Shown: piece after piece, positions 1 through 10,763 of the stretch
Position numbering within the stretch: the first letter of the stretch is position 1
How the letters are laid out: each line of letters begins with the position of its first letter
NCBI GenBank assembly: GCA_023128635.1
Contig: JAGMDP010000019.1
Span: 1 to 10,828, forward strand
Reading direction: 5' to 3'
From: Candidatus Heimdallarchaeota archaeon
GTDB taxonomy: Archaea > Asgardarchaeota > Heimdallarchaeia > JABLTI01
Length of the DNA stretch: 10,828 bases
Notes under the pieces: model-generated
The model's database searches: none
What the model was told of the DNA's origin: nothing
Seen by the model: only the letters and a program-made list of their open reading frames with translations
Made by a program: the position numbers and the translations under genes

Positions 1-2355
1 TTTTGATTTGTATTTTCCTGGTTCTTTTTTAATAGGTGAGAGAATAACTGCTTTTGGAATAAGTTCTTCAGCAGACATTTGGAGTATTTCTATACCTAGC
101 TCAATAAGATATTGTTTTGCTTTAATCATGCCCGAATCAACATCATCAACCTCGACTTTCTTCTTCATTACAGGTTCGGTTAAGATTAATTGTAGAACTT
201 TCTTTTGTGAGTCTCGAGAAAGCTTAGACCAATCAGAACGAACTGCTTCAAAACCTGTGATCTTTAATTTTCCAGATAAAATACTATAATAACTATATGC
301 TTTTGCTCTCCCCGGTTTGAAAATTAATCTGTATGCAATATCTTCTAAGGTTAATTCCATGGCTTCTGGGAATTTCGAATTTAAATTTTCAAGAATTGAA
401 TTTGTGATAGCCATTAGTTTCTCTAGATACTTTTGTTTTTTCTTGGGGTTTTTTTCATTATAGGCATTTATTACAAATGACTCATCGAGTATTTTTATGA
501 ACGCAGAATCGGTATCTCCATAAATGATATCAACTGGAGTTATCTTTTTAGAAACCTCTTTCAGAAGTTTTTCCATTTGAAGAATGTAGGTTCTTGCGAT
601 ATTTGTAATTGCATTACCAAGTGTTATGGAATAAAACCGGCTTCTAATATAATTGTGACTTCCGTACATACTATTAGCAACGATTTTCATAGAATATTGT
701 TCTTTGTCAAGAATCACTCGTTCCTCTGATAATCTCTCACTCTTTTTCTCATCTGTTGTATCTTTCAATTTTTGATCAAGAACTTTTATTGCTTCTTTCG
801 TTTGTTCGCGACGTTGAATCAATGATTCTTCCATTAATGACAAACATGATTGAGGTTTTGAGTGGAATAATTCAAGTGGATTAGCATCTTCAATATCCTT
901 CACTCTTTTGAGTGATTCCCCACCTATATTATGAGCGACACAAACAGATGGATACATGCTCCGAAAATCACTTATTATAACACCAAAGTGTAAAGTTCCT
1001 TTGGGGATTAGAACAGTTCCTCCTGTGTGTGGATTTTTCTTTCTTTCAATTCTCCTTCTTGCGACTTCATTATCACTTGGAGCCATAGGTATCAAAACAT
1101 CTTGTATTCTAGCGAACCTCATAAGTTCAAATTCACCTTGGATTCTTTCTGTACTTCCTGGAGCTTCGCCTGGAGGATAACCTGTTAATCGTATTACCTC
1201 AAGCCATCCTTGAACCCCTAATTTCCAAGTTAATTCGTAAGTTAGTTCACTATCTGTTAGGGAATATTCTTCAAGTTTCTTTTGATCTGCTTTGTTACCC
1301 TGTAAAAATCCTGACCTCCATAATTCACCAGTGGACTTTTCTATTTTGATTTTCCCATACCCAAGTACAGTTTCTGCTATATCTCCCAAACCCTTTTTAC
1401 CTGATATTGGGTGAATCCCCCAAGTTCTAGGTGAGATATCGTAAGAAATTCGTCCTTTGATTCTATAACAGCGATTACGATTTGAATAGAAGACAGAATC
1501 ATTTTGAAAAATTGAGAACAAAGAATTGGGGATTGACATTTTTTCCATTCTAGCCAAGAGATATGGAAAGTCGAAATTATCTCCATTAAATGTGATTAGG
1601 ACATCTGGTTGAATGCTATTAACTTCATCAATGAATTCTTGAATCACTCTAATTTCATCTTGATTGGTATCTCCCTGAAGAATGAATGTTTTACCTCTAC
1701 TATCAAATTGATTTGTTCCCCAAACAGTAGAAATTGCCACAATTCTTTTTGATTTGCTACTCAGTATATGCTGAATAGTTTCTTGTAGATGATCAATTTC
1801 GATATCAAATGCCATAATTTTTAGTTTATAGAAATGATCGGCAGAACTGACAACTTCTTTTGATGCTGGTTTTATTTGCTTGTAACTTGCATTTATATAA
1901 ACAGTGTTCTTTTCTTTCTTGATATTTGATGAATTTACAGTAAGAACATTCAACCCACGTATACCAAGATCTAATAAAAATCGTTTTACAAAAGGAATAT
2001 CTGCTTCGTGTATTTCATAACCTGCATCTTCAAAACGTGCTCTAACTGTTGGAGTTTGTTCAGGATGAGAACCAGATAATTTGATTAACTTTAATTCTTC
2101 TCCCCCAAAATACCTTTTTTTCCTGGTTTCTTCGATGCGAAGTTTCCATTTCCTAACAATTGGATTCTTTTCGATGAAATCCTCAATTCCTTTTTTATGT
2201 GTAATATAGAAATAAGGCAGAAAATCTTTAATGGTTACAATTACTGTTTCTTTTTTTGTTTTGCCAAATAATCTTATTGTTGGTGAATTATCAGTATCTT
2301 TTATTTTATAATCAAGATCAATTAACATAAAAGAGAATTCAGAGAAGTCTACCAT
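1..2355 (-). CDS. polB: Family B DNA polymerase, C-terminus cut by window edge
   Basis: This is a template-directed DNA polymerase with a proofreading 3'-5' exonuclease, acting in replication or repair. The 785 visible codons stay open to position 1. The archaeal N-terminal domain includes HPEQTP at 97-102. The exonuclease motifs are intact: Exo I DIE at 184-186, Exo II NGDNFD at 257-262, and Exo III YSLTD at 364-368. Polymerase motif A is DFRSMYPS (463-470), motif B runs from K557 through NSMYG (561-565), and motif C is YGDTDS (612-617). A KxY element (K685, Y687) and a GFEAVRSDWS stretch follow, as in archaeal PolB. Typical family members have about 770-900 residues, so probably only the C-terminal thumb end is missing. 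ATG at 2355 is the first ATG after an in-frame stop; Met10 is an alternative start. No clear Shine-Dalgarno is seen. All catalytic acids are present, so I expect an active enzyme. Which archaeal PolB subgroup it belongs to cannot be told by eye. Confidence 0.95.
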   Translation of the reverse strand, partial: MVDFSEFSFMLIDLDYKIKDTDNSPTIRLFGKTKKETVIVTIKDFLPYFYITHKKGIEDFIEKNPIVRKWKLRIEETRKKRYFGGEELKLIKLSGSHPEQTPTVRARFEDAGYEIHEADIPFVKRFLLDLGIRGLNVLTVNSSNIKKEKNTVYINASYKQIKPASKEVVSSADHFYKLKIMAFDIEIDHLQETIQHILSSKSKRIVAISTVWGTNQFDSRGKTFILQGDTNQDEIRVIQEFIDEVNSIQPDVLITFNGDNFDFPYLLARMEKMSIPNSLFSIFQNDSVFYSNRNRCYRIKGRISYDISPRTWGIHPISGKKGLGDIAETVLGYGKIKIEKSTGELWRSGFLQGNKADQKKLEEYSLTDSELTYELTWKLGVQGWLEVIRLTGYPPGEAPGSTERIQGEFELMRFARIQDVLIPMAPSDNEVARRRIERKKNPHTGGTVLIPKGTLHFGVIISDFRSMYPSVCVAHNIGGESLKRVKDIEDANPLELFHSKPQSCLSLMEESLIQRREQTKEAIKVLDQKLKDTTDEKKSERLSEERVILDKEQYSMKIVANSMYGSHNYIRSRFYSITLGNAITNIARTYILQMEKLLKEVSKKITPVDIIYGDTDSAFIKILDESFVINAYNEKNPKKKQKYLEKLMAITNSILENLNSKFPEAMELTLEDIAYRLIFKPGRAKAYSYYSILSGKLKITGFEAVRSDWSKLSRDSQKKVLQLILTEPVMKKKVEVDDVDSGMIKAKQYLIELGIEILQMSAEELIPKAVILSPIKKEPGKYKSK

Positions 2356-2444: not shown

Positions 2445-3443
2445 TCAACTCTTAATGATTGATTTCTGCAAGCTCTTGATATCATCTTCACTGAGAATAG
2501 TGTCCGGAGAAATAATGATCTTATAGATGCATTCACGACAGATCTCTGAACCAATTTTAACGCCATAGATTTGTGATAATATAACTGAATCTTCATATCT
2601 TTTATGAGTGACTTTGATATTCCTAGTCACAATTTGCTTAGTGGTTACAGGACACCTCAGAATTTTCTCACCATTCTTTAGAATACAGAAATCTGTACAA
2701 ATATCCTTGCCGGAATTATCCATGGATTCCTTACGAAGATCAGGAATTATTTCTAAAACCATTTTACTAACTTCATCATGAAAACCAAAACTAGTCATTT
2801 CTGTTTCAATAAATTGATCTTGATTCAAACAATAAGTAGCCCCACCATCCATTACCTTCACCATTGGACAAGGATAGTGAAATGAGTATTCTTCTTCTTT
2901 TTTAGTATCCACTTTGAACTCAGGAACTTCTCCTGTTGCCTCCTTCAAAATCCAACTATAAACTTCTTTTAAACCAACGAGAGTTACAGCGCTTGTACTA
3001 ATCATATCCCAGGATCTGTTAAGAACTCCTTTTAAACCCAACTTGCTAATCAAAGTGCTTTCTTTGATGGTTTTCTTAAGATCAGCTTTATGTCTTAGAA
3101 CACATATAGGAACAAGCTTCTTCTGGGTATTGCTAAGGATTCTTTTGAATTCTTTTGAAACCTCTTTGAGATCCTTCTTATTTCCAGAGTCAATAACAAA
3201 AACTATTAAATCTGCAAAAGGGAGAAGAGGAGTTACTTCTTCTCGGAATTTTTCCTGACCACCTAAATCGAAAATGCGAAAATTTATATCTTTAGCTTGG
3301 AGCGTACTAAGAGAGACACCTAAAGTCGGAGCTGTTTTGAAAACGTCTCCTTTTGTAAATATATTGAGAATTGTTGTCTTTCCTGCGTTAGATAAACCAC
3401 AAAACAGAATAACTTTTGATTTATCCTTTCCCACTTTAAGCAT
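2445..3443 (-). CDS. Rag/Arf-like small GTPase with an unrecognised cysteine-bearing C-terminal domain
   Basis: This is a GTP-binding switch protein of the Ras superfamily, and its partner is unknown. Residues 10-170 form the G domain. G1 is GLSNAGKT (16-23), the G2 threonine is T40 in APTLGVSL, and G3 is FDLGGQE (58-64), the Arf/Rag WDxGGQ form. G4 is RHKAD (117-121), where His replaces the usual Asn as in Rag/Gtr GTPases. G5 is TSA (150-152). The catalytic glutamine position, Q63, is kept. About 160 residues follow, roughly twice what a bare small GTPase needs. They carry scattered cysteines: C192, C205, C249-x3-C253, C264 and C302-x2-C305. This part could be a zinc-binding or roadblock-like domain; I do not recognise it. 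No lipidation signal or membrane segment is visible. The gene lies between nurA and polB on the same strand, with gaps of 78 and 89 bases. ATG at 3443 starts just before the G domain. Confidence 0.88.
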   Translation of the reverse strand: MLKVGKDKSKVILFCGLSNAGKTTILNIFTKGDVFKTAPTLGVSLSTLQAKDINFRIFDLGGQEKFREEVTPLLPFADLIVFVIDSGNKKDLKEVSKEFKRILSNTQKKLVPICVLRHKADLKKTIKESTLISKLGLKGVLNRSWDMISTSAVTLVGLKEVYSWILKEATGEVPEFKVDTKKEEEYSFHYPCPMVKVMDGGATYCLNQDQFIETEMTSFGFHDEVSKMVLEIIPDLRKESMDNSGKDICTDFCILKNGEKILRCPVTTKQIVTRNIKVTHKRYEDSVILSQIYGVKIGSEICRECIYKIIISPDTILSEDDIKSLQKSIIKS

Positions 3444-5268: not shown

Positions 5269-6696
5269 ATGTTAAGTAAAATTCAAAAAAGAAGAGCCAT
5301 ACTTACTGAGGTAATTGTTGATAGAAAGTCTGGAGATCACTTAGCTGAATTATCTGAATTAGCATATGTTGCTGGGTATAATGTCATTGATCGAGTAACT
5401 CAAAAAACTGATAGATTGCATCCAGAGTATTTATTTGGTAAAGGAAAAGCTAAGCAAATCAAGGGACGAATCAAAGAATTACAAGCAGATATTGTGATAA
5501 TTGAGAATAAACTAGATGCTATACAATTAGATAATTTAAGAAAAATGTGGCGTGTAGAAATCATTGATCGGTTTGAAATTATTCTTGAGATATTTATCAA
5601 GAAAGCAGGAACTCAAGAAGCACTTACTCAAATTCGTTTAGCGGCATTAAAGAAAGTAGTCGGATCTCGTTTTGAAAGTCACAGAAGTGTTACATCTCGA
5701 AATGTTTTAATAAAGAAATTAGAGAAAAAATTAGAGCTAATTAAGAAATCAAAAGATCTGAGAAGAAAAAGAAGGTTGAAAACGGGATTTGATTTAGTAG
5801 CAATTGCAGGGTACACTAATTCTGGAAAAAGTACTCTAATGAATGCCTTGACAGAAGCTGAAGTTGAAATAAGTGGTAGAATGTTTACAACCTTAGATAC
5901 GACAACAAGAAGTTTCGATGCAGACGGAAGAAAAATATTAATCACGGATACTGTTGGATTCATTTCTCGACTCCCGCATGTTTTAATGGCTGCTTTTTAT
6001 GCCACCTTAAAAGAAATAACAGAAGCTGATTTAGTCTTATTATTAATTGATTGTAATGATTCAGTGGAAAATATTAAGATGAAAGTTCTGGCATCAATGA
6101 ATACTTTAGGTGCAATTGAAGCCGATGTAATTCCACTAATTCCTGTTCTAAACAAAATGGATATCGCACAAAATAGAGATGAAAAACTGGAAATTGTAAA
6201 AGCAGCACTAAAAAGACAACCAATTATGATAAGTGCGAAAGATGAAACCAATATGGATACACTTAGAGCTGAAATTCTCAATATTCTTGAAACATATTAT
6301 TTTCATTTGAAAATACCAAATAGTAATGAAGGCATGTCCTTGGTTTCCCGTATTCATGATAAAACAAGAATTACAGAAGAAATATTTCATGAAACATTTA
6401 TAGAAATGAGATTTGAAACTAATGAGCGCTTAGGAAGATTACTCTACAACACTATCAAGAAAAGTAATTTAGAAGTTGAAATTATTAATGAAGAAATTCT
6501 CTTAAAGCAACTAAAGAAAAAAGAAACAGAACCAAAAGAAGACGGTTATACAATAATTAAAACTGAATCCGGTGAAGAATTTGTTATATTTGATCTCATA
6601 GAAGAGAAAACAGATAACGAGAATCAAGAATTACTGGATAAATCTGAGAAATTAGGTAAAATAACCTCACTTGAAGAGCAAAAGAAAGGAACCTAG
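5269..6696 (+). CDS. hflX: HflX-family ribosome-associated GTPase
   Basis: HflX binds the large ribosomal subunit and helps split or rescue stalled ribosomes under stress. The N-terminal HflX domain is recognisable: ELAYVAGYNVIDRVTQ (30-45), FGKGKAKQI (56-64), and VEIIDRFEIILEIF (96-109). A basic helical linker (145-172) follows. The G domain carries G1 GYTNSGKST (181-189), G2 FTTLDTTTR (206-214), G3 DTVGF (227-231), G4 NKMD (295-298) and G5 SAK (322-324). The C-terminal domain (about 345-412) contains FHETFIEMRFETNERLGRL. Two oddities: the glycine-rich GPGE segment that many HflX proteins carry between the N-terminal domain and the linker is not visible, and a charged, acidic tail of about 60 residues (413-475) extends the protein beyond typical archaeal length. 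The start is set by a well-placed Shine-Dalgarno. The stop is four bases before the next ATG, which implies co-transcription. Confidence 0.95.
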   Translation: MLSKIQKRRAILTEVIVDRKSGDHLAELSELAYVAGYNVIDRVTQKTDRLHPEYLFGKGKAKQIKGRIKELQADIVIIENKLDAIQLDNLRKMWRVEIIDRFEIILEIFIKKAGTQEALTQIRLAALKKVVGSRFESHRSVTSRNVLIKKLEKKLELIKKSKDLRRKRRLKTGFDLVAIAGYTNSGKSTLMNALTEAEVEISGRMFTTLDTTTRSFDADGRKILITDTVGFISRLPHVLMAAFYATLKEITEADLVLLLIDCNDSVENIKMKVLASMNTLGAIEADVIPLIPVLNKMDIAQNRDEKLEIVKAALKRQPIMISAKDETNMDTLRAEILNILETYYFHLKIPNSNEGMSLVSRIHDKTRITEEIFHETFIEMRFETNERLGRLLYNTIKKSNLEVEIINEEILLKQLKKKETEPKEDGYTIIKTESGEEFVIFDLIEEKTDNENQELLDKSEKLGKITSLEEQKKGT

Positions 6697-6700
6697 AGAA

Positions 6701-7276
6701 ATGAATAAATCTAAGTTTAAACGAAGACTCATACCATTTGTTTTTATTATAATTTTGGGATCTTTATCTGTGAGCAATTTAGTTATTGCTGCTTCTGACA
6801 CAAGACAAGATTTTGTTGTTAATAATGAAACAAAGGTATTACTGGAAATTATAGATGCAGCTGTATATTATAATGGCAGTTTAATTATAACTGTAACATC
6901 CGGTGATCCTATTAATGCTACAGTTAATGGGGTTATAAAAGAAATTTCAGAGGGTGAAAGCGAAGAGTTATACATATTAAATACCACAAGTATCTACTTC
7001 TCAATATCCACAAATGGTTTTTCAGAAGGATATTTTGATATGGAACTAAATTATGATCCAAACGCAAGTGGAAACAATCCTGTAAGAAGGACTATAGGAA
7101 TCGCTGCGGCGTTTATAATTGCTATTTCAATTATCTCGTACTATATTCGAGCAAAGAAACTTGAAAGAAAACCAGATGAGGAAGACGAAGAATTAGCAGA
7201 TCCAAAAACACTTCGCAAACGAAGAGAAGCTGCTGGGGCTGAAAAGAAATTCTGGGGACTAGATGATAAGGAATAA
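6701..7276 (+). CDS. Single-pass membrane protein with signal peptide and acidic cytoplasmic tail
   Basis: I do not recognise a family. From the ATG at 6701 the product has 191 residues. It consists of a signal peptide (basic start, hydrophobic 11-28, likely cleavage near ALA-type residues 30-31), a beta-rich outer domain (32-125), a transmembrane helix (about 131-148) and a charged tail that is acidic first (DEEDEELAD, 159-167) and then basic. Five N-x-S/T sequons (N42, N58, N72, N94, N121) all fall in the outer domain, supporting a type I topology with the tail inside the cell. The ATG lies four bases after the hflX stop, with AAGGA (6686-6690) ten bases ahead. A TTG at 6671 inside hflX would add ten hydrophilic residues before the signal peptide and is less likely. 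Its position between an HflX GTPase and a phosphatase suggests a shared operon, and the tail could dock a cytoplasmic partner; that is inference. Confidence 0.8.
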   Translation: MNKSKFKRRLIPFVFIIILGSLSVSNLVIAASDTRQDFVVNNETKVLLEIIDAAVYYNGSLIITVTSGDPINATVNGVIKEISEGESEELYILNTTSIYFSISTNGFSEGYFDMELNYDPNASGNNPVRRTIGIAAAFIIAISIISYYIRAKKLERKPDEEDEELADPKTLRKRREAAGAEKKFWGLDDKE

Positions 7277-9131: not shown

Positions 9132-10763
9132 TTGAAAAAGAAAATTATCTATGCAGTAGCAATAATGTCCCTTCTTCTCTTTCTTCCAGCATTTGTGGGA
9201 GATGCTCAAGTAGGCCCAAGTGAAGTAGGTGGCAATAATGTTACTCCAAATACATCGTATGATTATGATGGCAATACTATTGATATTATAGAAAATGATC
9301 CACAATCAACAACAATTTTACTAAATGGTACATATGAATTACAACTAGAACATAATGCTACAAATGTTGGTGTGTTGTGTACAAAATTAGACACAGGTTT
9401 ATCCATAGAAGCAGATGAAATGGTTTTTGATGTGAATTTTGAAACCGATTCGACTGATGGTCAAACCTTAGATGTATCATTACCAGGTATGTCTTTTGAA
9501 CTAAGTAGTGGTGGTCCTGACAACGAAGAGTGGAATGGCTCAATTATAGGAGCAGAAGCCATGGAATTTAGTTACAATACAGATAATCAGGATTTCTATT
9601 GGAGTGATGGCGTACATGATATCAGTTTGAAAACTGGTGTATTAGTAATCGATGGCGCTATGATGCTCAGCAGAGTTAATGAAACTGCTTGGGATATACT
9701 TGTCCCTTCGGGTCTTCTCCTTGTGAACTTCAATCCTGACGTGGGTTACATGGGAATTGAATATGGTCCCCCTGTTTATTATGGTCCCCCTCCAGCAGGT
9801 CCAGTCGCACCTTTATACCTTGATCCTTCTATAATTATTGGTTGGGATGGAAATGCTATCACAATTGGTGGTGCAGGATTTTCAATTATTCTATGCGCTT
9901 ATTCTTTGATGTTAGTCTGGGATTACATTATCATTACCTGGTACTTCGCATGGCTATTCATAGAAAGAATAGTATTTGTCATTTGGGACATAACTATAAT
10001 CATCTACTTAACAATCATTGAGCTATTGATAGTGATTATCTACTATACTTATGAAATTAAAATCTACGAGACGTCGGTGGTTATTGTATATCAATACATT
10101 GAGATTATCTTTGTATTCATATCGATTGTAATTTGGGAATTAACCTTTATTTTCCACTTTGAATTCTGGTTTATCGAAATAATTACTATTATCGATATAA
10201 CGGTAAATATCATTATCCAACCAATACGATTCGTTTTCATACCAGTAATTGTTCCAGTCTTTATTCCAGTGATTTTCTACGTACCAGTGCTGCTGATTCA
10301 GTATATTCATGTCTATGTTCCGTACGCTTCGCCGGTATTATCCATTGATGTCTATGATGAAGATTTAGCAATGCCAACACACACAATCCAATATCTTGTT
10401 TATGATGAAACAGAAACACCAATAGATGATGCTACTGTTTCCGTCAATTATAATGGAACAGATTACCCAGCAACCTTCATTGGTGCAGGCGTCTACGAAG
10501 TAGACCTTCCAGCTTCTGATCAAACAGAGACAATTATAGTAACAGCATCTAGATCATGGTATCCTGATGCAATCCTATCTTATGATTTAGCGGTTGATTG
10601 GATAATTGAAACAGTAACACCTCCCCCAGTTACAATTACACCTCCAAACGAAACAATAACAGAGACATTTACCCCTGCAGCTATTATCCCGATTGTTACA
10701 ATCGTAGCATCTCTATTTTGTATTGCGGTAGGAGCTGTAATCGTTAGAAGGAAGAAGATGTAA
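9132..10763 (+). CDS. Unrecognised large surface protein with an acid-led hydrophobic repeat region
   Basis: I recognise no family for this 543-residue protein. In order it shows a signal peptide (1-25), a beta-rich outer domain (26-205), a GPP-rich hinge (GPPVYYGPPPAGP, 212-224), and a hydrophobic stretch (250-397). After these come an Ig-like or carrier-type beta domain (402-488), a Pro/Thr stalk (494-515), a transmembrane helix (516-537) and a basic RRKKM tail. Sequons occur on both sides of the hydrophobic stretch (N36, N40, N65, N75, N135, N183; then N441, N506). The hydrophobic stretch has about 43 Ile in 147 residues by hand count, no Gly from 250 to 441, no Ala from 274 to 398, and an Asp or Glu roughly every 11 residues. 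If both flanks are outside, it must cross the membrane an even number of times or not at all. Start is TTG behind GAGGAG. A T-rich tract follows the stop. A role in the cell envelope is likely; anything more precise is unsupported. Confidence 0.85.
   Translation: MKKKIIYAVAIMSLLLFLPAFVGDAQVGPSEVGGNNVTPNTSYDYDGNTIDIIENDPQSTTILLNGTYELQLEHNATNVGVLCTKLDTGLSIEADEMVFDVNFETDSTDGQTLDVSLPGMSFELSSGGPDNEEWNGSIIGAEAMEFSYNTDNQDFYWSDGVHDISLKTGVLVIDGAMMLSRVNETAWDILVPSGLLLVNFNPDVGYMGIEYGPPVYYGPPPAGPVAPLYLDPSIIIGWDGNAITIGGAGFSIILCAYSLMLVWDYIIITWYFAWLFIERIVFVIWDITIIIYLTIIELLIVIIYYTYEIKIYETSVVIVYQYIEIIFVFISIVIWELTFIFHFEFWFIEIITIIDITVNIIIQPIRFVFIPVIVPVFIPVIFYVPVLLIQYIHVYVPYASPVLSIDVYDEDLAMPTHTIQYLVYDETETPIDDATVSVNYNGTDYPATFIGAGVYEVDLPASDQTETIIVTASRSWYPDAILSYDLAVDWIIETVTPPPVTITPPNETITETFTPAAIIPIVTIVASLFCIAVGAVIVRRKKM

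Follow-up and report, generated by a model that had tools for sequence, protein, structure and literature searches.

A conserved module predicted to form a beta-meander apolar on both faces in putative surface proteins of Heimdallarchaeota

The known systems closest to the element described here include the TCP domain (G-box) of CPAP, a free-standing open beta-meander, and the single-layer sheet of OspA, natural or engineered, which gave a weak match only. The free sheet of OspA is polar on both sides. In the archaea closest to eukaryotes, surface proteins have hardly been characterised. The stretch of DNA analysed here (the window; 10,828 nucleotides of contig JAGMDP010000019.1, Candidatus Heimdallarchaeota archaeon) carries a gene for a 543-residue protein that is most likely a secreted, C-terminally anchored surface protein of Heimdallarchaeota. 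Residues 264-365 of this protein (9921-10226) form an oily stretch in which 35 of the 102 residues are Ile, five are Leu, one is Ala and none is Gly. An earlier note, made from the letters alone, had read this stretch as a degenerate 11-residue repeat; the present analysis points instead to a conserved module (residues 258-371) whose predicted strands are apolar on both faces. As far as the literature search and two family libraries go, the proteins that carry it are undescribed Asgard surface proteins: no model in Pfam or NCBIfam covers the apolar module, and no paper on the family was found in a search in which most candidate papers were not opened.

Constraint on the module within its family

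Three protein searches returned 48 relatives (40, then four and four new). The organism was given in the names of 14 of these, 13 being assigned to the Asgard group, Heimdallarchaeota or, once, Thorarchaeota, and one (P0038) to Zixibacteria, the last likely from a wrongly binned contig. Another relative, P0037 (351 residues, on a short contig), resembles an unrelated membrane protein in its N-terminal half and is 90% identical to the family in its C-terminal part, and is probably a chimeric assembly. Alignment A1 contains 34 sequences and alignment A2 43, made up of 42 of the 48 relatives plus the window piece; A2 excludes P0002 (essentially the window protein), the apparent chimera P0037, and the part-length P0038, P0043, P0044 and P0045. 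When viral contigs were scanned, the pattern matched 123 times and no relative was found.

The results showed that mean pairwise identity in A2 was 0.43 over residues 40-150 and 0.30 over 150-253, and that over the module and the linker behind it the values were 0.59 (254-312), 0.70 (286-349), 0.63 (313-370) and 0.62 (371-400). The mean entropy of apolar columns was 0.85 in the module (258-371) and 0.62 at 286-349, compared with 1.77 in the membrane helix, 1.33 in the N-terminal domain, 1.29 in the signal peptide and 0.35 in the immunoglobulin (Ig) core; these values come from 33 of the 34 rows (P0038 dropped), and looser alignment may inflate entropy at the termini. The ratio of nonsynonymous to synonymous substitution rates was lower in the module than upstream of it in both unsaturated pairs (0.106 vs 0.261 for L005/L007; 0.184 vs 0.335 for the window and L008), most other pairs being synonymously saturated and L006 being excluded (wrong frame, 397 residues). 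The earlier view that the region is unusual is supported, and the region is under constraint.

A search with the A1 profile matched 13 of 58 genomes in the class to which G001, the source of locus L001, belongs; four of the 13 were matched in the C-terminal region only and one only in a 42-position fragment. Loci L015-L018 have the common C-terminal region only. A module-only profile matched 11 of 227 genomes of the phylum, at one place each, nine of them in the class list and two (G086 and G092) outside it. Sequences of the window or of seven of the loci are included in this profile, so that several of its matches arise by construction, and the genomes may be incomplete, so that absences carry little weight.

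Five distant relatives, L012, L013 and L026 (659-671 residues) and L027 and L028 (544 and 578 residues), have the module, an Ig-like region, a C-terminal membrane helix and a basic tail, as read from their sequences. Their first profile matches start at positions 221-299 (221-226 of A1 in L012 and L013), indicating that the N-terminal domain is not recognisably similar there; module, Ig-like region and anchor thus stay together in these five while the N-terminal domain is unrecognisable. The module is 148-155 residues long in L027 and L028, compared with 112-117 in the others, and in these two consists of 36-40% Phe, Tyr and Trp, being rich in Trp and Tyr. In L012, L013 and L026 its end is Lys-rich and strand-like, a feature not seen in the near family.

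Predicted fold, strand faces and spacing

AlphaFold2 was applied to the full-length protein (34 sequences; predicted local distance difference test (pLDDT) 69.6, predicted template modelling score (pTM) 0.50) and to residues 36-403 (43 sequences; pLDDT 80.8, pTM 0.75; 33 strands in 41-371). Both models are all-beta except for the signal peptide and the C-terminal helix, and they agree on the strands. The several membrane helices of a polytopic alpha-helical protein were looked for and not found, the full-length model showing, apart from the signal peptide, a single helix at the C terminus. In the 36-403 model the module strands lie at residues 258-263, 266-271, 279-284, 287-292, 298-304, 307-312, 315-320, 323-329, 334-342, 346-355 and 365-371, with a confidence of about 80-88 up to residue 335 and of 34-54 past about residue 365. 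These predictions strongly suggest that the module consists of ten or eleven short antiparallel strands in one long beta-meander sheet. No global Foldseek match was found in the PDB or among viral models, the template modelling (TM) scores being low; a VPS13-type (chorein) viral model reached E 1.2e-3 but a TM-score of 0.12, and nothing rests on this match. The layout of the gene and protein is as follows.

9132..10763, forward strand: whole gene of the 543-residue surface protein, TTG start, stop included; open frame with 48 database relatives (P0002-P0049)
9132..9200, forward strand: signal peptide, about residues 1-23, with Lys-rich start and hydrophobic core; model helix 2-16, probable boundary
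9252..9893, forward strand: N-terminal beta domain, residues 41-254; 22 model strands, one face apolar; no detectable similarity in distant relatives
9903..10244, forward strand: apolar beta module, residues 258-371, including 264-365; 11 model strands, face analysis, module-only profile
9987..10178, forward strand: best-conserved module core, residues 286-349; 70% mean pairwise identity in 43 sequences, apolar-column entropy 0.62
10053..10067, forward strand: E308-I-K310-I-Y312, putative ion pair on one strand face; reversed to K-x-E-x-Y in five distant relatives
10242..10331, forward strand: hydrophobic Pro-spaced linker, residues 371-400; P371, P385 and P397 invariant in 34 sequences, low model confidence
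10332..10601, forward strand: Ig-like domain, residues 401-490, by fold match
10602..10691, forward strand: Thr/Pro-rich stalk, residues 491-520, from sequence; low model confidence
10692..10760, forward strand: C-terminal membrane helix and basic tail, residues 521-543; model helix 521-542, RRKKM tail

The TTG at 9132 (window 9132-9165) is the probable gene start, giving a Lys-rich signal-peptide start as in the relatives; the database copy P0002 (532 residues) is consistent with a later ATG start at residue 12.

Strand faces were chained without model coordinates on the hairpin assumption that the last residue of a strand and the first of the next point alike. The apolar side fell on the same face in 21 of 28 neighbouring strand pairs (p 0.0009 against random flips). 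Ahead of residue 250, 21 strands had on average an apolar fraction of 0.80 on the better face and 0.32 on the worse, whereas for the ten strands at 258-355 the values were 1.00 and 0.64, suggesting, with the strands placed as modelled, that both faces of the module strands are apolar, in contrast to the amphipathic strands that precede them.

Positions 308 and 310 are Glu and Lys in all 43 sequences and in L010, but Lys and Glu in all five distant relatives, and Tyr at 312 invariably follows the pair in either order. Only in a strand do residues i and i+2 point to one side, so that the swapped charges are consistent with a salt bridge on a face that is apolar elsewhere. The swap in the five distant relatives may reflect one common ancestral switch.

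The earlier note had cut residues 264-365 into units mostly led by an acid. Its unit boundaries, its Trp residues at 263, 274, 285, 335 and 346, and the lack of Gly and near-absence of Ala all read as claimed. The repeat itself was not supported: BLOSUM self-similarity at lag 11 gave a z of 0.94 and the best of lags 3-29 a p of 0.73, so that self-alignment was no better than in composition-shuffled controls, which refutes the repeat by the note's own rule. Among the 34 aligned sequences the best lag was 8 in 14, 7 in ten, 20 in four, 22 in two, 28 in two, 11 in one and 16 in one, and only one of the 34 had a best lag with p < 0.05 against shuffled controls. Autocorrelation of residue classes in the segment showed no repeat at 11, nor did that of turn-type residues, whose best lag in the segment was 28 (p 0.34-0.54). 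The oily stretch is not an 11-residue sequence repeat. On the model, strand-plus-loop spacing accounts for the step of 11 residues in the first four units; further on this spacing is 8 to 13. The idea that each unit is a strand fits the model in that the unit starts at 264, 275, 286, 297, 313 and 344 fall in loops, but those at 308, 324, 336 and 355 do not; the helical reading offered beside it is not supported, AlphaFold2 predicting no helix between residues 17 and 520 or within 36-403.

Spacing of Trp at 11-residue steps was significant in the window protein (three pairs at lag 11; p 0.0006 with the lag fixed and 0.012 when all of lags 2-24 are considered), but the relatives hardly keep W263 and W274; by column, Trp is present in 8 of the 43 sequences at 263, 36 at 270, one at 274 (31 gapped), 29 at 285, 40 at 335 and all 43 at 346. 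Four acid pairs at lag 11 occur in the window protein (p 0.008 with the lag fixed beforehand, 0.13 over lags 4-24). As positions, the acids are conserved in the 43 near sequences (43 at 286, 297 and 308; 42 at 324; 41 at 344; 36 at 278; 33 at 313; 32 at 264; 31 at 336; 22 each at 349 and 355) but patchy in the five most distant relatives (two of five at 286, four at 297, one at 324). Six of the 11 conserved acid columns lie in loops, a borderline result (p 0.06). Homologues that vary in unit number were absent from the 43 near sequences, in which the span 286-349 has 64 residues in 39, 63 in three and 66 in one; the two distant relatives L027 and L028 are longer.

Acid spacing was also considered as a guard against insertion by the translocon. 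With the short row P0039 dropped, 17 of 42 sequences had charge-free runs shorter than expected from random placement (p < 0.05; median p 0.12), although these sequences are related and hence not independent. The median lowest 19-residue energy was -1.6 on a translocon scale, compared with -3.1 under random placement. In most members, however, the most favourable window keeps a negative energy, and even spacing of the acids is not seen in the distant branch; with this mixed result the idea was not adopted.

Possible roles of the module

The predicted extracellular sheet, about 110 residues long, combines apolar surfaces on its two sides with residue-by-residue conservation, which ordinary secreted proteins avoid. 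We infer that such a sheet could not stay free in water outside the cell and that protein would cover both of its faces, the simplest candidate being the corresponding module of a neighbour, with the recurrent acids in or near loops and the buried Glu-Lys pair and Tyr (308/310/312) in mid-face. The module would then join one protein copy to the next at the cell surface, and the variable N-terminal domain would be displayed outward. Copies of the module are the favoured partner because the N-terminal domain changes while the module stays. Surface assembly by packing of the conserved two-faced module on neighbouring copies is a plausible reading, which we prefer tentatively. Some observations leave doubts. 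Same-face agreement was 16 of 19 pairs upstream and five of eight in the module, so that support for the meander comes mainly from upstream; strand-like angles were ahead of helical ones in a periodicity test, not significantly, and that test alone decides nothing; and Gly, Asn, Pro and Asp make up at most 3% in six of ten module loops, which is unusual for tight hairpins, so that the true strand pairing may differ.

The sheet might instead face lipid, either lying at the surface of the outer leaflet or within it, much as apolipoprotein B does with its beta belts, or acting as a lipid carrier, aided by strand-end aromatics and, in some relatives, the Lys-rich end. This is less probable but deserves notice, since strands apolar on both faces adjoin the membrane anchor, the module end is Lys-rich in L012, L013 and L026, apolipoprotein B is among the weak fold matches, and a gene for a CDP-alcohol phosphatidyltransferase, the one neighbourhood hint towards lipids, lies directly upstream in G086 and G092. 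Packing against protein is favoured over it because the apolar residues are conserved one by one, whereas lipid-facing positions drift. An ordinary buried core, in which the N-terminal sheet, the Pro-rich linker or the Ig-like domain of the same molecule covers the apolar faces and the module plays no part in assembly, would agree with the one continuous meander of the model and with the single apolar face of the upstream strands. We consider it unlikely, because the module is kept in five distant relatives whose N-terminal domain is not recognisably similar, much apolar surface would be needed to cover both faces of ten strands, and the linker is of low confidence and not reliably packed in the models.

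Very high hydrophobicity and one 19-residue window (287-305) at -1.6 on the translocon scale would suit a membrane-spanning alpha-helical bundle with acids in its helices, or a hendecad helix, but neither AlphaFold2 model has a helix there, the composition is rich in Ile, Val, Thr and aromatics and poor in Leu, Ala and Gly (5, 1 and 0 per 102 residues), power at 100 degrees is low, and the conservation is unlike that of lipid-facing helices, implying that a helical structure is very improbable. Least credible is a transmembrane beta-barrel or pore in the cytoplasmic membrane: strand-end aromatics and loop acids in the sequence resemble barrel girdles and there are weak porin and VDAC fold matches, but strands of 6-10 residues are short for a membrane, the porin-type matches have a root mean square deviation (rmsd) of 6 to 16 A, and no closed barrel is indicated.

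Taken to its full extent, packing of the module on itself would make it a new kind of extracellular assembly module: an antiparallel sheet, conserved in its residues and apolar on both faces, that stays out of water by stacking on its own copies. The buried Glu-Lys pair, being reversible, would set the register, and Asgard surface proteins would be linked into dimers, fibres or a coat behind a freely changing display domain; all of this together is unlikely. Should the module pack on itself, a coat or fibre could be built at the surface with no need for a globular core; should it bind lipid, it would be the archaeal equivalent of the apolipoprotein-type sheets.

Gene neighbourhood and comparison with known systems

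In L001, L002 and L058 the gene order is PolB, Arf-type GTPase, NurA, TPR, HflX, small secreted protein, phosphatase, saccharopine-dehydrogenase-like gene and surface gene; L004, which begins at HflX, has the last five genes of that order. Downstream in L001, L002, L003 and L058 lies a serine-dehydratase-like gene followed by a vWA protein; the first three loci have this arrangement directly, whereas in L058 other sequence intervenes. In G086 and G092 the CDP-alcohol phosphatidyltransferase genes (L055:2004-2792 and L056:9157-9987; Pfam E 3.4e-14 and 1.7e-14) immediately precede those of the Trp-rich relatives and share their strand.

Other neighbours include the small secreted protein at window 6671-7276, with one membrane helix by sequence and no match in Pfam, which lies between HflX and the phosphatase in L001, L002, L004 and L058; an Arf-family GTPase with a C-terminal extension at window 2445-3443 (E 3.8e-37), beside PolB and NurA; in G037, as the next gene downstream of the relative, a protein with a prenyltransferase/squalene-cyclase-like toroid domain and a signal-peptide-like start (L054:3096-5606; E 1.6e-55); and in G053 an actin homologue two genes from the relative (L053:11395-12528; Pfam E 1.6e-135).

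Residues 401-490 match the Ig-type beta sandwich of surface domains of the macroglobulin, Big_1 and invasin type, a likeness limited to that domain. Weak Pfam matches were found in 32 of 43 members, and the Pfam cut-off was not reached in the window protein (CarboxypepD_reg, 14.2 bits vs 32.3 needed). A fold similar to the module occurs in a beta-sheet region of the cilia central apparatus (9ijj_x, a chain that may be SPAG17/PF6; also 7n6g_4F), which is eukaryotic and not secreted, and the shared fold shows no shared function. The mouse central-apparatus model was built partly from AlphaFold2 predictions (PMC12297659). The beta belts of apolipoprotein B gave a weak fold match at an rmsd of 9.9 A, and for lipid-binding sheets of the ApoB or LptD type all fold matches were weak. 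A profile search of PDB sequences for homology gave a best E of 2.9, with no CPAP TCP- or OspA-type member matched. Single-layer open meanders of the CPAP TCP and OspA type are hydrated on both faces and lack a hydrophobic core, whereas the module is predicted to be apolar, with mean fractions of 0.64 and 1.00 on the two faces of its strands at 258-355.
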